Shown: positions 48,030 through 62,425, numbered from the stretch's first letter. The stretch: 64,000 nucleotides of DNA from Natronosalvus halobius (GCF_024138145.1 NZ_CP099997.1:310001-374000), one strand, 5' to 3'. Numbers and translations are program-made. Notes: generated by a model not told the origin, from the letters alone.

Positions 48030-48605
48030 ATGAGAGACACCGAATTACTGAGCGGACCAACCGAAGGTTCGTCGGTTGGATACGAGTACGACGACGATAC
48101 GCGATCGCCGGTCATCGGCGCCGATCCGACGATCAGGACAGGGACGATTATCTACGACGACGTCCTGATCGGCGATCGATTCACCACTGGTCACTACGCG
48201 CTGATACGCGAGCGAACCCGAATCGGCGACGACGTGCTCGTCGGGACGAACGCAACCATAGACGGGACGTCGACCGTCGGTTCGAACGTGAGCATGCAGA
48301 CCAGCGTCTACGTACCCGCAGGGACCACCATCGGGGATCACGTGTTTCTCGGTCCGAACGCCGTCCTGACGAACGACCCCTATCCACTCCGTCGGGAGGT
48401 CGAACTCGAGGGCCCGACCCTCGAGGATCACGTCTCGGTCGGCGCCAACGCGACGATCCTCCCCGGTGTGACCGTCGGGCGAGGCTCGTTCGTCGCCGCG
48501 GGTGCGGTCGTCTCGGCGGACGTCCCCGAGGAGACGCTGGCCGTCGGCGTGCCGGCGAGACACGAACCGCTTCCGGCGTCGCTTCGAGGGGGAAACGCTG
48601 CATGA
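48030..48605 (+). CDS. Left-handed beta-helix N-acetyltransferase (WbpD/WlbB-like)
   Basis: The 191-residue protein is a hexapeptide-repeat acyltransferase, with many turns of the type [LIV]Gxxxx (VIGADPTIRTGTIIYD, RIGDDVLVGTNATIDG, TIGDHVFLGPNAVLTND). The cap NDPYPLRREVELEG is the loop with the conserved Pro-X-Pro/His-like region in this group. In bacteria, WbpD-type enzymes acetylate the 3-amino group of UDP-2-acetamido-3-amino-glucuronate. The next gene is the matching Gfo/Idh oxidoreductase, supporting this reading. Start ATG 48030. Confidence 0.82.
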   Translation: MRDTELLSGPTEGSSVGYEYDDDTRSPVIGADPTIRTGTIIYDDVLIGDRFTTGHYALIRERTRIGDDVLVGTNATIDGTSTVGSNVSMQTSVYVPAGTTIGDHVFLGPNAVLTNDPYPLRREVELEGPTLEDHVSVGANATILPGVTVGRGSFVAAGAVVSADVPEETLAVGVPARHEPLPASLRGGNAA

Positions 48606-48644
48606 TCGCCATCATCGCGTTCGCCAGGGGGGTGAGCGTCGCGT

Positions 48645-49634
48645 ATGCAGCCTGAACGACGGATAGACGTCGGCGTCATCGGCGTCGGGTCGATGGGGAG
48701 ACAGCACGCGCGCGTCTACGCCGGACTGTCGGAGGCGAATCTAGTCGGCGTCTTTGACGTCGACGACGAACGCGCCGCTCGCGTCGCGGACGAACACGGC
48801 ACGACCGCCATAGACCTGGAGTCGCTCCTCGCGTCGGTCGACGCCGCTTCGATTGCTGTCCCGACCGTGCATCACTACGACATCGCCGTGCAGTGTCTGG
48901 AGGCGGGCGTCGCGATGCTCATCGAGAAACCTCTCGTCACGAATATCGAGGAAGGGCGACGGCTCCGTTCGAGAGCGAACCGCGCCGACGTGGCGGTACA
49001 GGTCGGTCACGTCGAGCGGTTCAACCCAGCCGTGGTGACGCTCCGCAAAATCGTCGAGGATCTCTCGATCATCAGTATACACGCAGAACGGCTCGGACCG
49101 CCACCGAACCGTCGAATCGACGACAGCGCCGTCCTCGACCTGATGATCCACGACATCGACGTCGTGCTCTCGTTGCTCGACGAGTCGCCGACGAGCGTCA
49201 AGAGCACCGGCGTGAACGACAACCGCCACGCATCGGCACTGCTCGAGTTCGACTCCGGGATCATGGCGTCGCTCACTGCCAGCCGACTCACCCAGCGAAA
49301 AGTGCGTCGACTCACTGTGACCGCCAGAGAGTGTCTCGTCGAACTCGACTACATCGCCCAGTCGATTGCAATCCACCGCAACTCGGTCCCCAAGTACGCC
49401 GAACGCGACGGCAACGTTCGATTCCAGCACGAGAGCGTCGTCGAACGACCGCACGTGCCGAACGAGGAACCGCTACGGAACGAACTCGAGGCGTTCGTCG
49501 ATGCCGTCGCGTCGAACGAGACGCCGCTCGTGACCATCGACGACGGATTGGCCGCGCTCGAGTTGACCCACCAGATCGAAGCACAGGCCCTGGGCGACCG
49601 ATCTAACATCGGGGTGAGGGTGGCCGATGACTGA
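48645..49634 (+). CDS. Gfo/Idh/MocA oxidoreductase (WbpB-like)
   Basis: The 329-residue NAD-dependent oxidoreductase has an N-terminal Rossmann motif GVIGVGSMGRQHARVY, the family EKPLVT motif and the second-domain line VQVGHVERFNPAVVT. It probably oxidises the 3-hydroxyl of UDP-GlcNAcA. A strong GGGGGGTGAG run sits about 10 bases before the ATG. The stop overlaps the next start by 8 bp (ATGACTGA). Its place beside acetyltransferase and nucleotide-sugar dehydrogenase fits UDP-ManNAc3NAcA-type synthesis. Confidence 0.88.
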   Translation: MQPERRIDVGVIGVGSMGRQHARVYAGLSEANLVGVFDVDDERAARVADEHGTTAIDLESLLASVDAASIAVPTVHHYDIAVQCLEAGVAMLIEKPLVTNIEEGRRLRSRANRADVAVQVGHVERFNPAVVTLRKIVEDLSIISIHAERLGPPPNRRIDDSAVLDLMIHDIDVVLSLLDESPTSVKSTGVNDNRHASALLEFDSGIMASLTASRLTQRKVRRLTVTARECLVELDYIAQSIAIHRNSVPKYAERDGNVRFQHESVVERPHVPNEEPLRNELEAFVDAVASNETPLVTIDDGLAALELTHQIEAQALGDRSNIGVRVADD

Positions 49635-51174
49635 TCGACAATCGGTCGCCAAGGCCGACGAACTCGAGGTCGCGGATACTGACGGTCTCGAGGTCGTCGT
49701 GGCCGACGGCGGAACAGTCGATCGTGCAGACGACCGAGACTCGTCAGCGGAATCCACAGCGGTGAGCACCCGACCGTACGGAACCGGCCGCTCGAGCGAA
49801 CGACTGCGTCGCGCGTTCGTCTCGGGATCGATTCCGGTGGCCGTCTACGGACTCGGAAAGATGGGACTCCCCCTCGCCGCAGTGTTCGCCGAGACGACCG
49901 GCAACGTCCTCGGCGTCGATATCGACCCCGACGTCGTGGCGAAGATTCGGGCCGGAGACTGTCACGTCAAACGAGAACCCGGCCTGGACGACCTGGTCTC
50001 CGAGCGAGTGTCCGCCGGCGCGCTCGAGGCGACGACGAACCCTCGTGAGGCTGCAGCGCAATGCGCGGTTCACGTCGTCATCGTGCCGACGCCGATCACG
50101 GACGAGCGAGCGCCCGACCTCTCGATCCTGGACGCCACGATCGAGGCGATCGGAACCGGACTGGACCCGGGCGATCTGGTGCTCGTCGAGTGTACCGTTC
50201 CACCCCGGACGACCAGCGATCGGGTACGTCCGGCGCTCGAGGCGGCGTCGGGACTCACGCGCGGGACGTTCGGCGTGGCTTTCTGCCCCGAACGGACGTC
50301 CTCGGGACGGGCGCTCCAGGACATCCACGGCGCGTACCCGAAGGTCGTCGGCGGCGTCGACGCGGAGAGTACCGCAGCTGCGCGAGCAATTTACGAGACC
50401 ATCAACGATGAGGGCGTGATTACGGTCTCCGATGCGACCACGGCCGAGTGCGTCAAGGTCTTCGAGGGACTGTACCGCGATGTCAACATCGCGCTCGCGA
50501 ACGAACTCGCGACGTTCACGGACGAGTTCGGAATCGACGTCCGCGAAGCGATCGACGTCGCGAACACCCAGCCCTACTGTGACATACACGAACCGGGACC
50601 CGGCGTCGGCGGCCACTGCATCCCGTTCTACCCGTACTTCGTGATCGACCCCTTCGAGACCGACGCCCCGCTGCTCGAGACCGCTCGAGCGGTCAACGAC
50701 TCGATGCCGGCGTTCACGGTCACAAAACTGCGCGACGGCCTCGAGGCGGAAGGGACGGCGCTGTCGGACGCGACGGTACTGGTTCTCGGGCTGACGTACA
50801 GGCCTGGTGTCGAAGAGATCAGGGCCTCGCCGTCGATCGATATCGCCGCCGAACTCTCCGCGGCCGGTGCGACGGTCTACGGCGTCGACCCAATGCTCGA
50901 GTCGGACGACCTGGAGGCCTTCGACCTGGAGGCGATTTCGTTCGAGGCGGCGTACGACCTCCCAATCGACGGCGTGATTCTCGTTACACCGCACGAGGAG
51001 TTCGACGAGATTCGGTGGGCTGACCTGGGAACGGACCGTGAGGACGAACCCAGTGCTCGTAGAGATCACCGTCCGGTCGTCGTCGACGGTCGCGGAACCG
51101 TCGCTGGCCCGATCGATTCGTGGGTATACGAAATCGGTGGCGGGGTTCGTGAGGAGCGGGGGTGGGATTCGTGA
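49627..51174 (+). CDS. wecC: Nucleotide-sugar dehydrogenase (WecC/WbpA-like), first copy
   Basis: The 515-residue enzyme oxidises a UDP-hexosamine at C6 in two NAD steps. It has a Rossmann motif VYGLGKMGLPLAAVF after a 70-residue acidic extension, the Lys-bearing VKVFEGLYRDVNIALANE, and the catalytic Cys in GVGGHCIPFYPYFV. LGLTYRPGVEEIRASPS marks the third domain. The pattern resembles UDP-ManNAc/UDP-GlcNAc dehydrogenases. The extended N-terminus and the C-terminal 40 residues are specific to this lineage. Its stop overlaps the next start by 4 bp (GTGA). Confidence 0.9.
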   Translation: MTDRQSVAKADELEVADTDGLEVVVADGGTVDRADDRDSSAESTAVSTRPYGTGRSSERLRRAFVSGSIPVAVYGLGKMGLPLAAVFAETTGNVLGVDIDPDVVAKIRAGDCHVKREPGLDDLVSERVSAGALEATTNPREAAAQCAVHVVIVPTPITDERAPDLSILDATIEAIGTGLDPGDLVLVECTVPPRTTSDRVRPALEAASGLTRGTFGVAFCPERTSSGRALQDIHGAYPKVVGGVDAESTAAARAIYETINDEGVITVSDATTAECVKVFEGLYRDVNIALANELATFTDEFGIDVREAIDVANTQPYCDIHEPGPGVGGHCIPFYPYFVIDPFETDAPLLETARAVNDSMPAFTVTKLRDGLEAEGTALSDATVLVLGLTYRPGVEEIRASPSIDIAAELSAAGATVYGVDPMLESDDLEAFDLEAISFEAAYDLPIDGVILVTPHEEFDEIRWADLGTDREDEPSARRDHRPVVVDGRGTVAGPIDSWVYEIGGGVREERGWDS

Positions 51175-52487
51175 GCAATACCGCGAATGCGAGCAGTGCT
51201 TTCACTCCGTCTGCCAACCGGATCTGCGTCGTTGGACTCGGCTACGTCGGACTCCCGCTCGCGTGCGAGTTCGATAGCGTCGGGTACGACGTCCGCGGCT
51301 ACGACGTCGATACGGACAAGGTTCGAACGCTCGAACGCGGACTCGATCCGACGGGCGACGTCAGCGACCGATCGATCGCCGAGAGTTCAATACAGTTTAC
51401 GACCGATCCAAGGGTGATATCGACGGCCGATTACGTCGTCGTGGCGGTGCCGACTCCGGTCGACGAACTCGAGAAGCCGGACCTCAGCCTGGTCGAACGG
51501 GCGGGGGAGACAGTCGGCGAACATCTCACCGCGGGGGCGACTGTCGTCCTCGAGTCGACGGTGTATCCGGGGGCGACTCGCGAGCTATTCGTTCCGGCAC
51601 TCGAACGAGGCTCGAGCCTGACGGCGGGCGAGGATTTCGGCGTCGGCTATTCACCCGAACGAATCGTCCCGGGCGACGACGATCACGATCTGCGCAACGT
51701 CGTCAAGATCGTGAGCGGATTGACCGAGAGGTCGCGGGCGGATCTCGTCGACCTCTACGGATCGATCGTCGACGCAGGCGTCCACGAAGCGCCGACGATC
51801 GAAACTGCCGAAGCCGCGAAGTGCGTCGAGAATACGCAGCGCGACCTCAACATTGCGCTGGTGAACGAACTCGCGGTGGCGTGTACGCACCTGGGGATCG
51901 AGACACAGGCCGTGCTCGACGCGGCGAAGACGAAGTGGAACTTTCACGACTACCGACCTGGCCTCGTCGGCGGTCACTGTATTCCGGTCGATCCGTTCTA
52001 CCTCGCCTACGAGAGCGAACGAAACGGCTTCAAACTCGAACTCGTTCGAACCGCGCGCGAGATCAACGACTACGTACCAACCCACGTCGGAGAGATGACT
52101 GTAAAGACCCTGAACGACGCCGAAAACGTGCTCAAGCACAGTACCGTCCTGATCCTCGGACTGACTTACAAGCCGAATGTGGCGGATCTCAGATCGTCGA
52201 TCGGCGGCGTGATCGACTACCTCCGCGAGTACGGCGTCTCCGTCGTCGGATACGACCCGCACGCGGCCGACGCCGAGATCCGAGAGCGCTTCGATATCGA
52301 CGTCGCTCCCGAACCGTCCGGGGAGGGAATCGACGCCGTTGTGATCGGAACGCCCCACGACGTCTTCGACGAACTCGACGTCGGTGGGTTACTCGCCGAG
52401 ATGAACGAGAATCCCGTCCTCGTCGACGTCGACGGGACGTTCGAGGACCGGGCGGGCGAACACAATTGTCGCTACTGGAGGTTGTGA
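51171..52487 (+). CDS. Nucleotide-sugar dehydrogenase, second copy
   Basis: The 438-residue paralogue has a Rossmann motif VVGLGYVGLPLACEF, the Lys-bearing segment KCVENTQRDLNIALVNE, the catalytic Cys in GLVGGHCIPVDPFYLAY and LGLTYKPNVADLRSS. The Cys-bearing motif GGHCIPVDP is of the UDP-N-acetyl-galactosamine/glucosamine dehydrogenase (WbpA/WbpO) type, while the first copy has FYPYFV. This suggests that the two act on different UDP-sugars. GTG 51171 overlaps the previous stop. Its TGA overlaps the GT2 start (TGATG). Confidence 0.88.
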   Translation: MSNTANASSAFTPSANRICVVGLGYVGLPLACEFDSVGYDVRGYDVDTDKVRTLERGLDPTGDVSDRSIAESSIQFTTDPRVISTADYVVVAVPTPVDELEKPDLSLVERAGETVGEHLTAGATVVLESTVYPGATRELFVPALERGSSLTAGEDFGVGYSPERIVPGDDDHDLRNVVKIVSGLTERSRADLVDLYGSIVDAGVHEAPTIETAEAAKCVENTQRDLNIALVNELAVACTHLGIETQAVLDAAKTKWNFHDYRPGLVGGHCIPVDPFYLAYESERNGFKLELVRTAREINDYVPTHVGEMTVKTLNDAENVLKHSTVLILGLTYKPNVADLRSSIGGVIDYLREYGVSVVGYDPHAADAEIRERFDIDVAPEPSGEGIDAVVIGTPHDVFDELDVGGLLAEMNENPVLVDVDGTFEDRAGEHNCRYWRL

Positions 52488-53560
52488 TGTACCGAAATCA
52501 CTCCGTCGCCGCTGTCGTTCCGGCGTACAATGAGGAACGATTAATCGGCGACGTCGTCAGGAAGATGCCTCCGTTCGTCGACCGACTGTACGTCGTGAAC
52601 GACTGTTCCACGGACGGCACGTGGGAGGCAATTCTCGAGGCAGCGCGGTCGGACGCACGCCGTCGGGTCGACCGAGAGGGAGCCGTTGCGGACCGGGTCG
52701 AACGAATTCGGACCGACGGTGGAGAGAACCACGCGCTCGCAGCGAGAGCAACCGTTCACGACCCGATCGGTCGCGTCGTCCCGATCGATCACCGCGAGAA
52801 CCGCGGCGCCGGAGGCGCGATCAAGACCGGCTATCTGGCGGCACGGGCCGGGCGACTCGACATCGTCGTCACCGTCGACGGCGACGGCCAGATGGATCTC
52901 GAGGCGATGCCGAAACTCCTCGACCCGATCGTCGACGGGGTCGCGGACTACGCGAAGGGGAATCGACTGCTCGCTACCGATCATCAGCGATCGATGCCGC
53001 GGTTTCGACTGTTTGGCAACGCGATCCTCTCGCTGCTGACGAAAATCGCTTCGGGATACTGGAAGCTGAGTGACCCCCAGAACGGTTACACGGCGATTTC
53101 GAGGGACGCGCTAGAAGCCGTCGACCTCGAGTCGATGTACGAGTACTACGGCTACTGCAACGACCTCCTCGTGAAGCTGAACGCCAGAAGTACCCGTGTC
53201 GCCGACGTTTCGATTCCTGCAGTCTACGGCGACGAGGAGTCGAGCATCGTCTACTCGACGTACGTCCGGAACGTCTCGGGAATGCTCCTACGGAACTTCA
53301 TCTGGCGACTCGAGACCCGATACCTTCGGTTCGATTTCCACCCTATCGTCCTGTTCTACCTCTTCGGTGCGGGTGCGTCCGCACTCGGGACGCTCGGCGT
53401 GCTCTGGTCGTTCCTCTCTCGCGACCGTTCCAGAGAATCGCCATTCATTCGCGTCCTCATGAGTGCCCTCCTGTTTCTCACCGGCTGGCTGTTCCTGCTG
53501 TTCGCGATGGTGTTCGACATGCAGGAAAACGAAGATCGTGAAGTGGTGATTCACGAATGA
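52487..53560 (+). CDS. Family 2 glycosyltransferase with C-terminal membrane helices
   Basis: The 357-residue protein has a GT-A fold: VAAVVPAYNEERLIGDVVR, VVNDCSTDGT, the DxD-type IVVTVDGDGQMD, and NGYTAISRDALEAVD. After the catalytic part (about 300 residues) come two helices (VLFYLFGAGASALGTLGV and LMSALLFLTGWLFLLF), as in dolichol-phosphate-sugar synthases. An insertion of about 45 residues (around residues 45-90, Arg-rich) separates the first two strands. It probably loads a sugar on dolichol phosphate or a lipid-linked glycan. ATG overlaps the previous stop. Confidence 0.9.
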   Translation: MYRNHSVAAVVPAYNEERLIGDVVRKMPPFVDRLYVVNDCSTDGTWEAILEAARSDARRRVDREGAVADRVERIRTDGGENHALAARATVHDPIGRVVPIDHRENRGAGGAIKTGYLAARAGRLDIVVTVDGDGQMDLEAMPKLLDPIVDGVADYAKGNRLLATDHQRSMPRFRLFGNAILSLLTKIASGYWKLSDPQNGYTAISRDALEAVDLESMYEYYGYCNDLLVKLNARSTRVADVSIPAVYGDEESSIVYSTYVRNVSGMLLRNFIWRLETRYLRFDFHPIVLFYLFGAGASALGTLGVLWSFLSRDRSRESPFIRVLMSALLFLTGWLFLLFAMVFDMQENEDREVVIHE

Positions 53561-54648
53561 CGGCGACCGTTCTGTTCGATATCGGCCATCCGGCACACGT
53601 CCACCTGTTCAAACACGCTATTCGCGAACTCGAGGACCTCGGTCACGAAACGCACGTGTTCTCCCGGGAAAAGGACCTCACAGTCACACTCCTCGACCGG
53701 TACGGGATCGACCATACCCCCCTCTCTCGGAAGCGGTCGAGCGAACTCGGGTTGTTTCTCGAGCTGCTCGAGCGCGAGATCCGAACTCTCCGCGCCACGC
53801 GGCGAATCGATCCAGACGTGGTCGTCAGTTCACCGATCCCGCCGGCCGCCCACGCCGCTCGATTAAACGGGACGCCAATGATCCTCTTCGACGACAGCGA
53901 GGTCGCCACGTTGCAAGCGCGGCTGACGCATCCGTTTGCGACCAAGATCTGTACGCCGGTGAACTACGGTCGCGACCTCGGCGCGAAACAGGAGCGGTAC
54001 GCGGGATATCACGAACTCGCGTACCTCCATCCGAATCGGTTCGAACCTGATCCAGACCGACTCAGGGCTGTCGGCGTCGATCCGCACGAGCGTTACTCGG
54101 TCTGTCGGTTCGTCTCCTGGAGCGCCAGTCACGACAGCGGCAACCGCGGGTTCTCACGTGAGGGAAAACGCGAACTACTTTCGCTCCTCTCCGAGGAGGG
54201 GCCGGCGTACGTCACCAGCGAGGATCCGCTTTCACCGGAATTCGAGCCCCATCGTCTCCCGATTCCGCCTGAACTGATTCACGATCTGCTCTACTACGCC
54301 GACCTCTACGTCGGCGACTCCCAGACTATGGCGACGGAGGCGGCTATCCTGGGGACGCCGGCGATCCGATCGAACTCGTTCGTCGGCGACGGCGACATGA
54401 GCAACTTCGTGGAACTCGAGTCCAAGTACGGCCTCCTCTACTCTCGGTCGGACGAGCGGGAGACGCTGGCGCTCGCTCGCGATCTCTTGACCGATCTCGA
54501 CGCGAAAGCACACTGGAGGCGAAAGCGACGGAAACTCCTCGATGACAAGATCGACGTGACTGCGTACCTCCTCGAGACGATTCTCGAGACGGCGGGCGAA
54601 CCGCGCGAAAAACCTGGGATCGACCTCGAAACGGGGATCGGTCGATGA
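53557..54648 (+). CDS. DUF354 family protein (glycosyltransferase-like)
   Basis: The 363-residue protein begins TATVLFDIGHPAHVHLFKHA, the mark of archaeal DUF354 (PF04007), which is a GT-B-like fold related to UDP-GlcNAc 2-epimerase and MurG. Other lines are VVVSSPIPPAAHAARLNGTP and YYADLYVGDSQTMATEAAILGT. The Arg/Lys-rich C-terminal helix may contact membrane. The function is not known; the location between a GT2 and wecB suggests glycan assembly. The start overlaps the GT2 stop by 4 bp (ATGA). Confidence 0.85.
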   Translation: MTATVLFDIGHPAHVHLFKHAIRELEDLGHETHVFSREKDLTVTLLDRYGIDHTPLSRKRSSELGLFLELLEREIRTLRATRRIDPDVVVSSPIPPAAHAARLNGTPMILFDDSEVATLQARLTHPFATKICTPVNYGRDLGAKQERYAGYHELAYLHPNRFEPDPDRLRAVGVDPHERYSVCRFVSWSASHDSGNRGFSREGKRELLSLLSEEGPAYVTSEDPLSPEFEPHRLPIPPELIHDLLYYADLYVGDSQTMATEAAILGTPAIRSNSFVGDGDMSNFVELESKYGLLYSRSDERETLALARDLLTDLDAKAHWRRKRRKLLDDKIDVTAYLLETILETAGEPREKPGIDLETGIGR

Positions 54649-55709
54649 AGGTACTCACCGTCGTCGGCGCCCGTCCACAGTTCGTGAAGGCGTCGGCCGT
54701 TTCGCGTGCGCTGAACGCAGCGGGCCACGACGAGCAACTCGTCCACACCGGCCAGCACTACGACGAGGAACTCTCGGACGTCTTCTTCGAGGAACTCGAG
54801 ATTCCCGACCCCGCCTACGAACTGGGGGTCGGTTCGGCATCTCACGGCGCGCAAACAGCGGCGATGATCGACGGCCTCGAATCGGTCGTCGCCGAGGTCG
54901 AACCAGACGTAATCGTCCTCTACGGGGACACGAACTCGACGCTCGCCGGCGCGATCGTCGGTTCGAAGGTCGACACGACAGTCGCTCACGTCGAGGCCGG
55001 TCTGCGGAGTTTCACCGACATGCCCGAAGAGGTGAACCGACGACTGACGGATCACGCGGCGGACCTGCTATTTGCGCCAACGGCGAGAGCGGTTACGAAC
55101 CTCGCCGCTGAAGGCCTCAAAGAGGGCGTCTACCGGAGTGGCGACGTAATGTACGACGTGCTCTTGCGGGTCGTCGATCTTCCAGTCGATCGGACGACGA
55201 TTCTCGAGCGATTCGAGGTGACGCCTGGAAACTACGTCCTGGCGACCGTCCACCGCGAGCGAAACACGGACGATCCGGCCAGGCTTCGATCGATCGTCGA
55301 CGCGCTCTCGACGTCGTCGCTTCCGGTCGTATTCCCGGCGCACCCTCGAACTATCGATCGGCTCGAGCGCAACGACCTCCTCGACCGAGCGAGACGCGAT
55401 CTACACCTTACCGAGCCGGTTGGGTACCTTGACTTCGTCCGGTTACTCGACGCGGCCGACCGTGTCGTCACCGACTCGGGCGGGGTCCAGAAGGAGGCGT
55501 TTTTCCTCGATACCCCCTGTGTCACGCTCCGGGAGGAGACCGAGTGGGGCGAAACGGTCGAATGTGGCTGGAACGAACTCGTCGGCACGGATGGACGAGC
55601 GATCGAGCGTGCCCTGGAACGAGAACGCTCACTCGAGGACAAGCCGTCGCCGTACGGCGACGGACGGGCAGCCGAATCCATCATCGAGGTGCTCGAACGT
55701 GCTCGATGA
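54645..55709 (+). CDS. wecB: UDP-N-acetylglucosamine 2-epimerase (non-hydrolysing)
   Basis: The 354-residue enzyme epimerises UDP-GlcNAc (or a 3-acetamido relative) at C2. Motifs: LTVVGARPQFVKASAVSRAL, VHTGQHYDEELSDVFFEELE, VLYGDTNSTLAGA, HVEAGLRSFTDMPEEVNRR, VVTDSGGVQKEAFFLD and CVTLREETEWGETV. Complete and of normal length. Start ATG 54645 overlaps the DUF354 stop. With the nucleotide-sugar dehydrogenases it would give UDP-ManNAcA or, with the first two genes, a di-acetamido-mannuronate. Confidence 0.93.
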   Translation: MKVLTVVGARPQFVKASAVSRALNAAGHDEQLVHTGQHYDEELSDVFFEELEIPDPAYELGVGSASHGAQTAAMIDGLESVVAEVEPDVIVLYGDTNSTLAGAIVGSKVDTTVAHVEAGLRSFTDMPEEVNRRLTDHAADLLFAPTARAVTNLAAEGLKEGVYRSGDVMYDVLLRVVDLPVDRTTILERFEVTPGNYVLATVHRERNTDDPARLRSIVDALSTSSLPVVFPAHPRTIDRLERNDLLDRARRDLHLTEPVGYLDFVRLLDAADRVVTDSGGVQKEAFFLDTPCVTLREETEWGETVECGWNELVGTDGRAIERALERERSLEDKPSPYGDGRAAESIIEVLERAR

Positions 55710-56598
55710 GCACGCGTTCGCGGTCTGTCTCACGCACGACGTCGACCGACCGTACAAAACGTACCAGGCGCCGTACTACGCCCTCATGAACCGAGACCCT
55801 TCGCAACTGCGGTCCCTGTTCTCGAGGGATCGACCGTACTGGCAGTTCGAGGAGATCATGGCCCTCGAGGAGGACCTCGGCGTCAGGTCGACGTTCTTCT
55901 TTCTGAACGAGCAGAATCTGTTCCGCGACAAATCGCCGCGGGAGTGGCTGCGACCGGCGAACTGGAAACACTTCGTGGGCCGATACGAGATCACGGATCC
56001 GGCGATCGTCGACGTCATTCGTGAGCTCGATGCCGGCGGGTGGGAAGTCGGATTGCACGGTTCTTACGAGTCTCCTGACGATCCGGTTCGGTTGAGAGAG
56101 GAGAAGTCGCAGTTGGAGCGAGTCCTGGGTCACGAAATCACCGGTGGGAGGCAGCACTATCTCCGACTGACTCGGCCGGACACGTGGGAAATTCACCGAA
56201 ATATCGGGTTACGGTACGACGCCAGTCTCGGTTCGACGGACGAGGTCGGCTTTCAACACGAGTACGGTCTTTTGCGCCCCTTCGACGACGAGTTCGCGGT
56301 CTTCCCACTCACCGCGATGGAGGTTGCCCTTCTCGGGCCGGAAACAGACCTCGAGTCGGCCCGGGAACGAGGCTACGAACTGCTCCGTGAGGCCGAGCGA
56401 AACGACGCCGTCGCCACGTTGCTGTGGCACCCACGGTTTTTCAACGAGGACGAATTCAGTGGGTATCGCCAGTTGTACATCGACCTCGTCGAGTACGCCC
56501 AGGAACGCAACGCCTGGATCGGCTCCTGCGCGGAGTTCCTCCGACGTATCGACGAATCGAACGAATTGGAACGAAAGCCAGTTCGAGAGCGTCCATAG
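55699..56598 (+). CDS. Polysaccharide deacetylase-like protein
   Basis: The 299-residue protein begins (GTG) MLDEHAFAVCLTHDVDRPYK. The DHDVD-like motif (HDVD) is the usual first metal motif of carbohydrate esterase family 4 and related proteins. WEVGLHGSYESPDD carries the second (HGS.E), and ATLLWHPRFF the C-terminal His. An insertion with a helix (RDPSQLRSLFSRDRPYWQFEEI) lies after the first motif. It should remove acetyl groups or act on a sugar chain. It overlaps the wecB stop by 11 bp and lacks a signal peptide, so it acts in the cytoplasm. Confidence 0.82.
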   Translation: MLDEHAFAVCLTHDVDRPYKTYQAPYYALMNRDPSQLRSLFSRDRPYWQFEEIMALEEDLGVRSTFFFLNEQNLFRDKSPREWLRPANWKHFVGRYEITDPAIVDVIRELDAGGWEVGLHGSYESPDDPVRLREEKSQLERVLGHEITGGRQHYLRLTRPDTWEIHRNIGLRYDASLGSTDEVGFQHEYGLLRPFDDEFAVFPLTAMEVALLGPETDLESARERGYELLREAERNDAVATLLWHPRFFNEDEFSGYRQLYIDLVEYAQERNAWIGSCAEFLRRIDESNELERKPVRERP

Positions 56599-56691
56599 CT
56601 CTCAGGGACGACTCATGAAAGAAATACAAAATATTCGCTCGAGTGGAACGGATTGGGAGATTTATGGGGTTCGACGAGGTACGACTGACGA

Positions 56692-57474
56692 ATGAATACC
56701 GACCTATTCACGGACAGAAAGCGGGCAGAGATGGATCGTTACAACGAAGACGACGACGAGGGCAAGTGGATTGCTGACTATCTATCTACTGATGGGTACA
56801 ACGACCTCATGGATGCTGGACATCACCGACTCGTTCGCGAGACGCTGGCGAAACACCTGACATCGAACGCGTCGGTCCTGTCGATCGGAGCGGGACAAGG
56901 TGACTGGCTCCGCGAGTCTACCAGGCACGATCCGCGACATTCCCTCGCACTGGACATCTCTGTCAACGAACTACGACGAGGATCGAACGCGGAGAACGGA
57001 GACCGGATCGAGTGGCTCTGCGGCGACGCCGAACGGTTGCCCGTCCGCGACGACTCGATCGATTTTGTCCTGGCCGCGGCTGTACTACACCACCTCCCGC
57101 AATGGAAAGACGCGATCCTGAACGAAATCTGTCGCGTTCTCAGCCCCGATGGGGTGTTCCTCTTCTTCGATCCATTGCGATACAATCCGTTCGCCATGTT
57201 CGCGCGTCGATTTCTCGAGACGCGAAAGCGGACCGAGGCCGAAGTTCCACTGAATCCGTTCACGCTTCGATCGACGCTGGAGGCGTCGTTCGAAACGGTC
57301 GATCTAACCGGGTTTTACGTAATCTCTCCGATCTGTACGCTCCTGGATGCGATCGCACCAATCGACCTCGAAGGAGCGATATACGAACTCGCCGAAATCG
57401 AACGACGGCTCTCGAAACGAGGGTTACTGCCGATGACTGCAGAGGTCGTCGGGATCGCTACCGATCCGCGGTGA
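56692..57474 (+). CDS. Class I SAM-dependent methyltransferase
   Basis: The 260-residue enzyme has motif I VLSIGAGQGD, motif II LALDISVNELRRG, DAERLPVRDDSIDFVLAAAV and ILNEICRVLSPDGVFLFFD, in the Methyltransf_11 pattern. A long C-terminal region ends with NLRRLSKRGLLPMTAEVVGI-type segment. It could methylate a sugar or a lipid-linked glycan. A TATA-like GATTTATGG (56658-56666) about 28 bp before the ATG suggests its own promoter and leaderless transcript, so it need not belong to the preceding operon. Confidence 0.88.
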   Translation: MNTDLFTDRKRAEMDRYNEDDDEGKWIADYLSTDGYNDLMDAGHHRLVRETLAKHLTSNASVLSIGAGQGDWLRESTRHDPRHSLALDISVNELRRGSNAENGDRIEWLCGDAERLPVRDDSIDFVLAAAVLHHLPQWKDAILNEICRVLSPDGVFLFFDPLRYNPFAMFARRFLETRKRTEAEVPLNPFTLRSTLEASFETVDLTGFYVISPICTLLDAIAPIDLEGAIYELAEIERRLSKRGLLPMTAEVVGIATDPR

Positions 57475-57531: not shown

Positions 57532-59580
57532 CTAGAGGTCGTCGGCGGCGACTTCCTCGCCGTCCCACTCGAGCCAGAAGGCGGGGTCGGCGTCGGTATC
57601 GGCGTTCTCGGCCTCGAAGGTGACGATGTCACCCTCGACGACGAAGCCGTCGCCCCAGCCGTTGCCCGTCAGCCCCTCGACTTCGTAGTACCCGGTCTCG
57701 TAGTAGGTGATGGTGTCGTTGTCGTTCGCCGAGATCGGGTTGCCGGAGGGGGACGTCCCGAGGTCGGCAGCGGTGACAGGCCCGTTGGCGATGAACCGGT
57801 AGCGCACGCGGTCGGCCCCCGGTTCGGTCAGGATTGCGAACTCGGCCGGTTCCGGTTCGTCGTCTTCGTCGTTCTCACCGGTAAGGTCGTCAACGGCGAT
57901 CTCTTCGCCGTTCCACTCGAGCCAGAAGGCGGGGTCAGTATCGACGTCGGCGTTTTCGGCCTCGAAAGAGATAATATCACCCTCGATGATGAAGCCGTCG
58001 CCCCAGCCGTTGCCCGTCACCCCTTCAATCTCGTAGGTGCCGTCTTCACGCTCGGTGATCGTATCGTTGCCGTTCGCCGAGACCGGGTTGCCGGAGGGCG
58101 ACGTCCCGAGATCGGCAACCGTAACTGGACCGTTGGCAACGAATCGGTAGCGCACGCGGTCGGCGCCGGGTTCCGTCAGAATCGCCAGTTCGTTCTCGCC
58201 GCTGGTATCGTCTTCTGTTCCTTCTTCCTTGTCAGCGACCAATTCGTCGACGGCGATCTCCTCGCCGTTCCACTCGAGCCAGAAGGCCGGATCAGCGTCT
58301 GCGTCGGCGTTCTCGGCCTCGAAGGTGACGATATCGCCATCGATGGCGAACGCATCGCCCCAGCCGTTACCCGTGAGCCCCTCGACCTCGTAGGTGCCGT
58401 CTTCACGCTCGGTGATCGTATCGTTGCCGTTCGCCGAGACCGAACCACCCGAGGGCGAGGTGCCGAGATCGGTGGCGGTGACGGGTCCGTCGGCGACGAA
58501 CCGGTAGCGCACGCGGTCGGCGCCGGATTCCGTCAGAATTGCCAGTTCGTTCTGGTCCCCGGTGTCGTCGGTCTCCTCCTCGTCTCCATCGTCGCCGCTA
58601 CCACTCTCCCCACCGTCGTAGTTTAGCCAGTCCTCGCGGGTCCCATTGACCAGCATCACGTGATTGTCGAAGTAGATCGTGTACGGATCGTTGTCCTGGT
58701 AGAGGTCGTACCCGTGCGGACCCGCGTACTCGATCCCGTTTCCGTCGGCGGACCGCCACGCGAAGTTCTCCCGCTCGTAGGCGAGTTCGTCGTTCACCCA
58801 CGCGCGGAAGACGCCGTCGTTGTTCATCGACCCGCTCGAGGTGTACGTATTCAGCTTCTGGTAGGTTTCGATCTTCACCCACTCGTTCATCGGCATCTGG
58901 ACCCGGTTGCCGAACTCGAGGTACGGGGTCGTGCTGTCGGTGAGTCGCGCGTCGTAGGAGTAGACGAAGAACGTGTACGTGTCGGGGTGATCGTGGTTCT
59001 CCCGACGGGTGAAGCCGAGCCGGACCGACCACCCGTCTTCGCCCGTGAACGGGGGCGGCGTGACGAAGTTTCCGCTGTCCTGGTCTCCCTCGCTCCGTAA
59101 TCCAGCCCAGAAGAACCGCATCGTGTTGTTCTCCGAGAGCCACATCCCATTGGGGTGGACGTAGAACCGCTGGTACAGCTCGTCGACCTCCGTGTCGTAG
59201 TGGTCGTCGAACGGGTACACCGTATTCGCGCTCATCTGGTCGCCGTCGAGATAGTGCGCACAACTCGTCTCTCCCGTTCGGGAGGTGCTCGACGTGATGT
59301 CGGGGCTCGTCCTCGAGCGCTGGTTCCACACGTCGTAGACGTCACCCAGACCGTTGTACGATGACGACGGATCGTAGTACTCGTCGTAATCGATCTCGAT
59401 CAGATCCTGGTCGTGAGAATCGGCTGCGGCGGTGCCCGAACTCAGGAGCGCCCCACCGGCAATCGCGGTTGAGCCGAGTACCTTGAGGTACGTTCTGCGT
59501 TCGATGTCGTTCGCCGTGCTGTTCTCTTTACCGCTTTTCAGTGTGTTATCGATTGCTCGTTTCGAGCGCTCACGTGCCAT
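57532..59580 (-). CDS. Tat-exported beta-sandwich protein with tripled C-terminal domain
   Basis: The 682-residue protein has a Tat motif IERRTYLKVLGSTAIAGG and a cleavable signal. An N-terminal region of about 320 residues (from IEIDYDEYYDPSSSYNG to NHVMLVNGTRED) resembles polysaccharide-lyase/concanavalin-like beta sandwiches, with FYVHPNGMWLSEN and FWAGLRSEGDQ segments. An acidic linker follows, then three copies (about 88 residues each plus linker, period 348-357 bp) of a beta domain starting LAILTE.GADRVRYRF and ending DPAFWLEWNGEE. The catalytic site is not assignable. It is probably an exported glycan-binding or glycan-cleaving protein. The second gene of the pair (59887-60852) lacks the tripled domain. 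Confidence 0.82.
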   Translation of the reverse strand: MARERSKRAIDNTLKSGKENSTANDIERRTYLKVLGSTAIAGGALLSSGTAAADSHDQDLIEIDYDEYYDPSSSYNGLGDVYDVWNQRSRTSPDITSSTSRTGETSCAHYLDGDQMSANTVYPFDDHYDTEVDELYQRFYVHPNGMWLSENNTMRFFWAGLRSEGDQDSGNFVTPPPFTGEDGWSVRLGFTRRENHDHPDTYTFFVYSYDARLTDSTTPYLEFGNRVQMPMNEWVKIETYQKLNTYTSSGSMNNDGVFRAWVNDELAYERENFAWRSADGNGIEYAGPHGYDLYQDNDPYTIYFDNHVMLVNGTREDWLNYDGGESGSGDDGDEEETDDTGDQNELAILTESGADRVRYRFVADGPVTATDLGTSPSGGSVSANGNDTITEREDGTYEVEGLTGNGWGDAFAIDGDIVTFEAENADADADPAFWLEWNGEEIAVDELVADKEEGTEDDTSGENELAILTEPGADRVRYRFVANGPVTVADLGTSPSGNPVSANGNDTITEREDGTYEIEGVTGNGWGDGFIIEGDIISFEAENADVDTDPAFWLEWNGEEIAVDDLTGENDEDDEPEPAEFAILTEPGADRVRYRFIANGPVTAADLGTSPSGNPISANDNDTITYYETGYYEVEGLTGNGWGDGFVVEGDIVTFEAENADTDADPAFWLEWDGEEVAADDL
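57540..58545 (-). repeat. Three tandem in-gene domain repeats, about 350 bp each
   Basis: The three units, seen by the sequences GCGATCTCCTCGCCGTTCCA at about 58253, GCGATCTCTTCGCCGTTCCA at 57896 and GCGACTTCCTCGCCGTCCCA at 57548, recur at 348-357 bp. They are nearly identical at the DNA level even at third positions, so the tripling is recent or homogenised. Linkers differ in length by a few codons. Confidence 0.85.
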
Positions 59581-59886
59581 GCAACTTGACTAGCCAACTA
59601 TGCTGACCTCAACGCTCTCATGAACATACCGGAACTTTATACGTCGACGAATTACTGTCAGGTTAGCTGTTGTATCCTCTTACGCCTTCGGAAAACGACC
59701 CCGTCTTCCAGATGTACAAACCGGTTATTTAGGCGTATTCAGTACCGTCAGACTCGGTTCACGGGTCCGGCGATCAGTGGTTCGTCTGCGGACCAGAGCA
59801 ATTGCTCGAGTGAGAAATCGACACGCGGGCGTCCCGTTCTGAGCGTCTCGAGGTCCGGTATCAAATAGATTGCCGCCTTCGGATGC
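59581..59886. other. 306-bp gap between the two Tat beta-sandwich genes
   Basis: Minus-strand TATAAAGT (about 59637-59644) is a fair TATA element for the 57532-59580 gene, about 60 bp before its start. The right half (59748-59880) has an AT-richer frame of 40-odd residues that could be a coding relic, but rare codons make it doubtful. Nothing else is recognised. Confidence 0.5.
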
Positions 59887-60852
59887 TTAGGACCGCGTTG
59901 GTGACACGATATTCTCGGGAACTCCGCCGGCGACGATGTGGTGATCGTCGAAGTAAACGGTCTCACCGTTCTGGTTCGATCCCCACCAGTAGCCGTGCGG
60001 ACCGGCCTCTTCGATGCCCTGTCCTGGAATGCTGGTCCAGCGGTAGTCGGTTCGCTCGAACGCTAGTTCGCCGTTCACCCAGACGCGGATTTCGCCGTCG
60101 GCGTTCGCCCGGCCGTTCCCGACCGTATTCAGCACCTGGTGACATCGGAAATCGTTCCACTCGTTCATCCGAACGCCCGTATCCGTGACGTTCAATTCGG
60201 GGACCGGGTTAACCTGATCCATGTGGTATACGTAGACGAAGAGCGGGTACTCGTCGGGATGGTCGTGGGAGCCACGTCGGGCGTATCCCAGTCGAATGGA
60301 CCACCCGTCTTTCCCGTTCGGAATATCTTCCTGGGTCGTCCCGCCCGATGACGTCGGCCCGTTCCGGATTCCTGCCCAGAAGAACCGGAAGGTCCCCCTG
60401 TCCGCTAATGTCATCCCGTTTGGGTGGAACCGGAACCGCTGGTACGTTTCCTCTACGACGTCGTCGTGATTAGCGGCAAACGAGTAGACCGTATTGGCAG
60501 TCATCTGGTTCCCCTGGAAGTGGTGTGCGAGACACCGGTCCCCGGGTCCTGGCTGACCGACTACAATCTCCGGATCAGCTCCCGAGCGCTGGTTCCACAC
60601 GCGATAGACGTCGTCCAGACCGTTGTACTTCGAGGACGGGTCGTAACACTCGCCGTAATCGACGTCGACGAACTCGAGGTCGGTTTCCGCCGAACCGCCT
60701 GCCTCTCCACGAACCGCGTTCGAGAACAGTGCGCCCGTCGCCGTCGCCCCCAGCAGTGAGAGATACGAGCGTCGGCCGAGCGTGCCCCTTTTCGTTCGTG
60801 GCTTATCGTCACGGGGCTTGTCGCCGGAAACATCAGATTGCTTGCCTCGCAT
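59887..60852 (-). CDS. Tat-exported beta-sandwich protein, short paralogue
   Basis: The 321-residue protein has a Tat motif GRRSYLSLLGATATGALF and is homologous to the first 320 residues of the 57532-59580 protein. Matching lines include YGECYDPSSKYNGLDDVYRV, FHPNGMTLADRGTFRFFWAG, DGWSIRLGYARRGSHDHPDE and AGPHGYWWGSNQNGETVYFD. It lacks the acidic linker and the tripled domain. It is probably secreted and acts on the same type of ligand. Start ATG 60852 begins a basic leader; a longer frame upstream ignores the AT-rich promoter. It lies 306 bp upstream of its paralogue, same strand. Confidence 0.82.
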   Translation of the reverse strand: MRGKQSDVSGDKPRDDKPRTKRGTLGRRSYLSLLGATATGALFSNAVRGEAGGSAETDLEFVDVDYGECYDPSSKYNGLDDVYRVWNQRSGADPEIVVGQPGPGDRCLAHHFQGNQMTANTVYSFAANHDDVVEETYQRFRFHPNGMTLADRGTFRFFWAGIRNGPTSSGGTTQEDIPNGKDGWSIRLGYARRGSHDHPDEYPLFVYVYHMDQVNPVPELNVTDTGVRMNEWNDFRCHQVLNTVGNGRANADGEIRVWVNGELAFERTDYRWTSIPGQGIEEAGPHGYWWGSNQNGETVYFDDHHIVAGGVPENIVSPTRS

Positions 60853-61189
60853 ACAAAACCGGGGAAGTAACCTCTGGTTATCAACCTTGTCGTGTGAAAA
60901 TCGTACATTTATCTCATAAATCGGAATCTTACTTTCCACCTCAAAAAACACTCAAGATTGGAGAACGTACTGGTGGTCAGGAGGCAATCTGGCCGATCAG
61001 ACCGTCCGGAGCGAACCCTGGAAGGGCGACGTTCGCGTATTCGGTTCGTGATTCCGACGTTTCACTCGGTTTCACGCCGGTCAACCACGCAGGCAGTGAG
61101 GCTGCACGAGCGGGAAAACAGGGGTTACCGAACGCAATGATCGAGTACCACCGGTTGGCTTTTCACGGAGGGCGGTGGTTACGAACTCT
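60853..61189. other. 337-bp gap between the short paralogue and the ATP-grasp gene
   Basis: Divergent region. The minus strand holds ATTTATGAGATAAATG (about 60908-60923), a promoter candidate for the 59887-60852 gene. The plus side has a GGAGGGCGGTGG run just before the ATP-grasp start and no clear TATA box. No RNA gene or repeat is seen. Confidence 0.5.
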
Positions 61190-62425
61190 ATGTCTGCCGA
61201 TCCGACGGTCCTCCTTCTCGATGGAGATTACCCGACTGCGCTGACCGTCGCAAAGGAACTCTCCGAGGATCTCGGTGCGACGATCGTCGGCGTCGGAACG
61301 ACGCGATACAGTCGCCTGCTCCGATCGAGGTACTGCGACGAGAAAATCCTCGCCCCTCCGCCGGAGAGCGAGAGATACGGCGACGCCGTCGAGTCGGCGG
61401 TTCGGACCTATCGCCCGGACTTCGTCTTGCCAGTCGGGTACCAATCGACGGTTGCAGTCGACCGACTTCGATCGATCCTCCCCTCCTCTGTTTCTACCTC
61501 TCTCCCCTCGAGCGAGTCGCTCCATGCCGGAGCCGACAAGTCCGTTGTCCTCGACCGTGCGGCCCGTCTCGGAATCGACGTTCCGGAGGAGTACTCGAGC
61601 GTCGTCGAGCAAATCGACGCGAACGGGCGACCGAGGGGTGCTCTCGAGCGACTGAACTTCCCCGTGTTTCTCAAGGCCAGACACGAATCCGGCGGTGGCG
61701 AGACGACGGCCAGGGTCGACGACCCTGCTCGCTTCTGGCGAACCTACGACCACATTGCGGCGGTTGCGCCGGGAGGGGACGTGCTCGTCCAGGAGCTAAT
61801 CGAGGGGACGAGGTCGACCTACGGGATCGGCGTCCTCTGTTCGGACAACGACGTCGTGCTCAGGTTCGGTCACGAGGAACTTCGGTCCGTTCCTCGTTGG
61901 GGCGGAAGTGGGACACATCTCCGAACCTACCGGAACCCCTCTCTCGAGACCCAGGCAACGGCCTTGCTACAGGACATAGGGTGGAACGGAATCGCACTTG
62001 TCGAGTTCAAACGCCGGTCCGACGGTTCGTTCGTGCTCATGGAGGTGAACCCGAAGTTCTGGGCGTCGTACGCGCTGGCCAGCGAGCGCGGCTACCGATT
62101 CGCCTCGACGATGGTCGCCTCCGCTCTCGGCCTGAACGTCGACATACCGGTCAGGACCCTCGAAACGGTCGACGAAATGGTATTTCCGCTTCGGGAACTC
62201 CAGTACTGCGTTCGGCAACCGACCCGAAGCGAAATCTCGGCCGCTGCCAGGACGGTACTGACCCCAGGTGCGAAGTGGAGCCTCGACTGGACCGACCCCA
62301 TCGCCTGGCTGATGCCACCCGTCGCCGCGATGGAACGAGTCACCGACGTAGAGACTCGACTCGAGGCCGCCGTCGAGACCGTAACCGGCCGCCGATCGCG
62401 GAACGTCAGGGAGGATCGACGATGA
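61190..62425 (+). CDS. ATP-grasp domain ligase (carbamoyl-phosphate/D-Ala ligase-like)
   Basis: The 411-residue cytoplasmic protein has an N-terminal Rossmann-like domain (TVLLLDGDYPTALTVAKELS), then an ATP-grasp domain: FPVFLKARHESGGGETTA (the ATP-binding Lys), VLVQELIEGTRSTYGIGVL and the metal-binding Asp/Glu/Asn line GIALVEFKRRSDGSFVLMEV followed by NPKFWAS. It joins an acid to an amine or phosphate; the substrate is unknown. Its place in a glycan locus suggests amidation or peptide-like modification of a sugar. The stop overlaps the 82-aa gene start (ATGA). Start 61190 or GTG 61175 (closer to the GGAGG). Confidence 0.85.
   Translation: MSADPTVLLLDGDYPTALTVAKELSEDLGATIVGVGTTRYSRLLRSRYCDEKILAPPPESERYGDAVESAVRTYRPDFVLPVGYQSTVAVDRLRSILPSSVSTSLPSSESLHAGADKSVVLDRAARLGIDVPEEYSSVVEQIDANGRPRGALERLNFPVFLKARHESGGGETTARVDDPARFWRTYDHIAAVAPGGDVLVQELIEGTRSTYGIGVLCSDNDVVLRFGHEELRSVPRWGGSGTHLRTYRNPSLETQATALLQDIGWNGIALVEFKRRSDGSFVLMEVNPKFWASYALASERGYRFASTMVASALGLNVDIPVRTLETVDEMVFPLRELQYCVRQPTRSEISAAARTVLTPGAKWSLDWTDPIAWLMPPVAAMERVTDVETRLEAAVETVTGRRSRNVREDRR

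Follow-up and report, generated by a model that had tools for sequence, protein, structure and literature searches.

Lyase-like secreted proteins of a haloarchaeal glycan locus: a bare form and a form with three accessory domains

The window, a stretch of 64,000 nucleotides from a Natrialbaceae haloarchaeal chromosome (G000:C1:310001-374000; the family was placed via relatives), carries a glycan locus and, within an otherwise plus-strand arm of it, two minus-strand genes whose products are here called P1 and P2. We consider it probable that P1 and P2 are secreted lyases, resembling those of polysaccharide lyase (PL) families 14 and 36, that act on the uronate polymer of their own locus, with P2 as a bare form and P1 as an anchored one. 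That a cell keeps such lyases for its own coat is probable because the lyase fold comes together with linkage to chain-building genes. Hardly anything is known of the enzymes with which archaea shorten, shed and recycle the exopolysaccharides they make, and the pair is a concrete and widely conserved candidate, with a polymerase-like neighbour, a site made up of an Arg plus Tyr-x-Tyr, and a recurrent module that has no Pfam family. An earlier reading of the window, made without database searches (the sequence-only reading), had placed two open reading frames at 57532-60852, inside the glycan locus on the opposite strand, and had proposed export by the twin-arginine translocation (Tat) pathway. 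The frames, their strand and their place in the locus were confirmed, and both proteins have twin-arginine signals, RRTYLK at residue 28 of P1 and RRSYLS at residue 27 of P2.

Fold of the shared domain

A domain of about 265 residues is common to P1 and P2 and is about 46-47% identical between them. The sequence-only reading had recognised the sharing correctly but gave the domain 320 residues; outside the shared domain and the repeats of P1, the N-terminal residues are signal and leader. An AlphaFold2 model of the P2 domain, based on a 42-sequence alignment drawn only from the window proteins and related loci, reached a predicted local distance difference test (pLDDT) score of 87.7 and a predicted template modelling score of 0.87. 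In a Foldseek search with this model each of the top seven matches was a PL14/PL36 lyase, with E between 1e-10 and 2e-9, and structural alignment gave Z 21.6 with a root-mean-square deviation of 2.8 over 227 residues for AkAly30 (PL14), Z 21.4-21.6 for Aly36B (PL36) and Z 20.7 for vAL-1 (PL14). All six listed PL14/PL36 entries score Z 20.2-21.6 (VIA), and the next rows drop to Z 17. On this modelled structure the shared domain is a PL14/PL36-type beta-jelly roll. Modelling, which the earlier reading had named as a check on its "lyase-like" label, brought up no best match outside carbohydrate proteins, and the label is upheld at the level of fold.

Sequence comparison points the same way. A profile (A2) matches Aly36B at E 1.4e-10, vAL-1 at 1.8e-5 and AkAly30 at 0.0023, and at E <= 0.01 the Pfam family Polysacc_lyase is detected in 22/36 relatives and Polysacc_lyase_14 in 11/36. 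A contig search with P2 alone found no relatives, which an alignment-based search then retrieved. The weak Pfam matches of P1 to SnoaL, a POM152 Ig-like domain, a phage tail domain and DUF3804 were all below cut-off and dismissed as chance, as were the phmmer matches of whole P1 to the PDB.

Linkage to a polymerase-like gene

The second line of evidence is the genomic setting of the family, which was counted across 125 Natrialbaceae genomes with "near" meaning within 15 kb. In this set, 47 of the 54 strong lyase-like relatives lie near a gene for a polymerase-like membrane protein, and at genome level the co-occurrence of the two gene types has a Fisher P of 3e-19 when related genomes are treated as independent. 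Conversely, a single-sequence search placed a lyase gene near 22 of the 29 polymerase-like sites, and a profile search added three (G007, G008 and G110) to give 25/29, with one to three lyase genes each. The seven sites that initially seemed to lack a lyase gene were thus partly a sensitivity artefact; the remaining four comprise G116 and G035, which are fragmented and have the lyase gene on another contig, and two sites in G102. The polymerase-like protein itself has no Pfam or NCBIfam match, and its role in polymerisation is putative.

Two congeners have the entire locus in synteny, their proteins being about 78-98% identical gene by gene. P1 and P2 are under purifying selection in comparison with these congeners (dN/dS, the ratio of nonsynonymous to synonymous substitution rates, about 0.14-0.16, with P1 at about 0.14), and the P2 orthologues are 93% and 88% identical. 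Loci of more distant Natrialbaceae, among them those of Natrinema zhouii, Haloterrigena salina, Natronorubrum thiooxidans, Natronococcus pandeyae and N. jeotgali, hold one to three lyase-like genes. The neighbours that recur in these distant loci are homologues of the UDP-sugar (uridine diphosphate sugar) dehydrogenase, GFO oxidoreductase, GT2, DUF354, deacetylase-like, ATP-grasp, FemAB-like and polymerase-like genes; glycan-locus neighbours are shared in 10 of the 13 loci examined, and an eleventh is cut by a contig end. Within this clade, relatives of the pair lie in loci of this type throughout Natrialbaceae, and the occurrence away from glycan loci that the earlier reading had named as refuting is not what is seen. 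A limited search of the open-access literature found no described link between haloarchaeal PL14-like genes and exopolysaccharide loci, which is weak evidence.

Likely polymer

The sugar enzymes encoded by the upstream arm are a hexapeptide acetyltransferase, a UDP-sugar 3-dehydrogenase-like GFO oxidoreductase and two nucleotide-sugar 6-dehydrogenases, accompanied by a GT2 glycosyltransferase, a DUF354 glycosyltransferase-like protein, a WecB-type 2-epimerase, a deacetylase-like protein and a methyltransferase. The WecB match is above cut-off, and the GFO oxidoreductase is closest to the archaeal UDP-N-acetylglucosamine 3-dehydrogenase, at a score below cut-off. This enzyme set resembles the Wbp-pathway route to N-acetylated aminouronic acids, and from it we infer that the locus would make nucleotide-activated (amino)uronic acids. 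A beta-eliminating lyase needs a 4-linked uronate. The exopolysaccharide of Haloferax denitrificans consists of 4-linked 2,3-diacetamido-glucuronic acid (PMC3191746), and the phage lyase LKA1gp49 cuts a diacetamido-mannuronate O-antigen by beta-elimination (PMC5701251). Given these two precedents, a lyase for such an aminouronate polymer appears chemically reasonable by analogy.

Active site and proposed function

The positions of the lyase active site were traced by alignment. Bacterial-type relatives carry a GGKLPG motif whose aligned counterparts are GGK in AkAly30 and vAL-1 and K143 in Aly36B; the K143 numbering was taken from the K143A/Y185A and K143A/M171A mutants in PDB titles and from printed alignments, and one hidden Markov model alignment moves this column by one residue. 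On the cleft strand, a Tyr-x-Tyr pair is found as Y207/Y209 in both P1 and P2 and in 35/36 glycan-locus members. Like this pair, a GWS motif and further positions are near-invariant between distant clades. The key positions are R155, S185, R187, Y207, Y209 and D210 in P1 and R156, S185, R187, Y207, Y209 and H210 in P2, so that P1 reads YSYD and P2 reads YVYH, the His after Tyr-x-Tyr being replaced by Asp in P1.

In the proposed mechanism, the polymer chain would be bound in the jelly-roll cleft of P1 or P2, where the Arg (R155/R156) would stand in for the lysine of PL14/PL36, while the two Tyr would remove the C5 proton and protonate the leaving O4. Such cleavage could serve to trim the coat, release it or turn it over. 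P2 would diffuse freely, and P1 would be held on the polymer or the cell surface via its three accessory modules, possibly with altered activity due to the change from Tyr-x-Tyr-His to Tyr-x-Tyr-Asp.

Several observations weigh against a lyase acting on the polymer of its own locus. Neither protein reaches the Pfam cut-offs of PF21294 and PF14099: P1 matches neither family, and P2 scores 13.2 bits against PF14099, for which the cut-off is 29.9. The column of the catalytic Lys is Arg in P1 and P2 and in 47/52 haloarchaeal rows with these two included (31/36 glycan-locus relatives and 16/16 stand-alone relatives), whereas it is Lys in 15/15 bacterial-type rows, and Arg is a poorer general base than Lys. 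A DegT-type aminotransferase, which occurs in related loci (e.g. L111:17206-18297), is absent from the locus in the window (window 48030-49634), with several found elsewhere in the genome. The exact sugar is therefore uncertain: a DegT copy elsewhere may complete the pathway, or the sugar may differ. Furthermore, a separate clade (Natrialba and others) with the same fold is stand-alone and lies away from glycan loci, so membership of the family extends beyond such loci. Finally, no convincing lyase activity was found for Cip1, a protein of the same fold (PMC3764139). As the curated cut-offs are not reached and the catalytic lysine is missing, P1 and P2 are left outside the PL14 and PL36 families. 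The suggestion of the sequence-only reading that the pair may bind or cut the polymer of the locus is well supported by the fold and the gene linkage, but cutting itself is inferred, with Arg in place of the catalytic Lys.

The chief rival explanation, which we regard as rather unlikely, is that P1 and P2 are non-catalytic, glycan-binding pseudo-lyases that retain the polymer on the cell or order its assembly. The replacement of the catalytic Lys in most glycan-locus and all stand-alone relatives favours it, as do the missing His after Tyr-x-Tyr in P1, the three accessory domains of P1, and the frequent occurrence of this fold among lectins and among proteins for which lyase activity is not convincing. 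However, the near-invariance of Tyr-x-Tyr, GWS and other positions across distant clades is more than binding alone needs, and Lys is retained at its position in 5/36 members of the glycan-locus clade. Lys is scarce in both proteins (1.0% in P1 and 1.9% in P2), and a general Lys depletion of haloarchaeal proteins could explain the exchange of Lys for Arg with the mechanism unchanged.

It is improbable that P1 and P2 are secreted catabolic lyases that break down uronate polysaccharides of foreign origin (alginate or glucuronan, for instance), with their placement in the locus being incidental. A PL14-type enzyme of the natronoarchaeon Natrarchaeobius is labelled a putative alginate lyase (PMC12343721), and Natrialbaceae also have related genes that stand alone, outside glycan loci; against this, the linkage to one polymerase-like gene is far beyond chance, and the neighbours are biosynthetic, with no uronate-uptake or catabolism genes recognised among those scanned. 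That the domain is instead a glycoside hydrolase, transglycosylase or attachment enzyme of the concanavalin A (ConA)-like superfamily is very improbable, since glycoside hydrolase family 16 (GH16) and other ConA-like jelly rolls reach only Z about 15 against the P2 model, 5-7 Z units behind the PL14/PL36 matches, and the conserved motif is the lyase Tyr-x-Tyr, not an acidic catalytic pair.

Secreted lyases for the polymer of the locus remain the preferred reading, and known systems place them more closely. Aly36B (PL36 alginate lyase, PDB 6KCW/6KCV/6KZK) shares the jelly roll and a similar Tyr-x-Tyr-His motif (Y185 region) and is the best sequence-profile match; it differs in having K143 where P1 and P2 have Arg, and its substrate is alginate. 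This K143 is reported to serve as both base and acid, according to a reference title in PMC8618178. The PL14 enzymes vAL-1 (3A0N) and AkAly30 (5GMT) have the same fold with conserved C-terminal jelly-roll strands, but they carry the GGK lysine in place of Arg and are only 12-14% identical over the structural alignment. A functional analogue is RbmB of Vibrio cholerae, a secreted lyase of a biofilm gene cluster that cuts its own matrix polymer and has a role in dispersal (PMC11637428), although its beta-helix fold and its sequence are unrelated to those of P1 and P2.

Two Natrialbaceae genomes, G015 (L098:4536-6765) and G068 (L102:9351-14021), have clusters of lyase-like proteins with the lysine motif (GKLPG or a variant). 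These group with bacterial-type sequences in the tree and are probably a separate acquisition.

Paralogy and the repeat module

P1 and P2 are sisters in the tree (100/96), and the long/short lyase-like pairs of other genera branch apart from them; hence the pairing of a bare with an extended copy seems to have come about repeatedly, with the deep order of the tree unsure owing to some long branches. At the end of the extended copies in other genera stand divergent versions of the P1 repeat module (E 1e-7 to 1e-19 for the longest, by an iterated profile).

In P1 itself, acidic linkers join three tandem repeat domains. The sequence-only reading had described three near-identical copies of an 88-residue domain, almost identical at third codon positions, and had concluded that the domain was recently tripled. 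The tandem triple is real, but the unit is about 100 residues, with a start-to-start spacing of 348-357 nt, and the copies are only 80-84% identical in protein and 65-70% at third positions. Synonymous divergence (dS) between copies is 0.56-0.69, compared with 0.25-0.35 between P1 orthologues of different species (0.32-0.47 for the linker-and-repeat part alone). In addition, the three copies are also present in P1 of two congeneric genomes. In a tree of the copies, the copy 3 sequences of all three species unite in one clade (100/100), separate from copies 1 and 2. The copy 1 sequences of two species form a clade at 99/97, whereas in the third species copies 1 and 2 pair with each other at 83/83, which may be due to gene conversion. 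As copy 3 keeps its orthology across species and the copies differ from one another at synonymous sites more than the species do, the sequences date the tripling to before the split of the sampled species, and a recent triplication is ruled out.

A search for the repeat in other proteins, which the earlier reading had proposed, found the module in 93/391 Halobacteria genomes and 39/86 genera, often in tandem. Among 20 host proteins scanned, Peptidase_S8 is present in six, a beta-helix match in five and a lyase-type match in three; these subtilases and beta-helix proteins carry one to several tandem copies of the accessory domain of P1, and their main domains differ from its own. The repeat follows the catalytic domain in six Natrialbaceae S8 subtilases (L078:4699-7134, L064:4443-6494, L067:5509-7755, L076:4165-6138, L080:4813-6804 and L082:5687-8443). 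In Pfam, carbohydrate-binding-module families included, the repeat gave only chance-level matches, and neither its profile (A4) against solved structures nor a Foldseek search with the copy 2 model (at E <= 0.001) gave a meaningful match. That model is nearly all beta, and structural comparison gave a best Z of 5.1, with archaeal chitin-binding domains at 4.8, level with unrelated folds. No relatives were found in a search of viral contigs. The repeat is an old and widespread haloarchaeal module and a candidate new family of accessory domains for haloarchaeal enzymes. Because it is shared by proteases and polysaccharide-active enzymes, we suggest that it attaches proteins to a target they have in common, perhaps the cell surface or the glycan there.

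A broader picture may tentatively be drawn, one we would not yet expect to hold in full. An archaeal lyase family with Arg for Lys might regularly accompany one type of archaeal polysaccharide polymerase and determine how long a uronate coat grows or how it is released, with lineages having separately reached bare and anchored copies and the latter using a surface-binding module that is also found on proteases.

Gene pair and surrounding locus

Table 1. Coordinates of P1, P2 and the neighbouring parts of the glycan locus in the window
Feature	Coordinates	Strand	Remarks
Upstream arm of glycan locus	48030..57474	+	
P1 (682 residues): Tat signal, PL14/PL36-like domain, three repeat domains	57532..59580	-	
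P1 repeat domain copy 3	57535..57840	-	orthologous across three species, support 100/100
P1 repeat domain copy 2	57886..58188	-	model pLDDT 89.7, beta sandwich
P1 repeat domain copy 1	58243..58545	-	
P1 lyase-like beta-jelly-roll domain, residues 57-325	58606..59412	-	
P1 leader with twin-arginine signal, RR at residues 28-29	59419..59580	-	sequence
P2 (321 residues): Tat signal and shared lyase-like domain only	59887..60852	-	
P2 lyase-like domain, residues 57-321	59890..60684	-	model pLDDT 87.7, PDB matches
ATP-grasp protein of locus	61175..62425	+	also near lyase genes in several relatives
Polymerase-like membrane protein, 610 residues	62667..64000	+	about 10 hydrophobic segments; continues past window end

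The methyltransferase gene adjoining P1 (window 56692-57474) is present in the congener G112, and no homologue was found in the examined stretch of G114, where the rest of the locus is syntenic; variation in polymer decoration is a possible explanation. Beyond the window end, on the same strand as P1 and P2 and near them, lies a gene for a 519-residue protein (L103:568-2127, minus strand; G000:C1:374568-376127) with a pectate-lyase-like beta-helix (PF12708, E 5.5e-11). It is conserved in both congeners, has no homologue in the other glycan loci examined, and is a possible second glycan-cutting enzyme. In the downstream arm, genes for a formyltransferase (L103:6502-7284) and a polysaccharide deacetylase (L103:7275-8090) overlap by about ten bases beside those for FemAB-like acyltransferases, and the polymer may carry unusual N-acyl groups.

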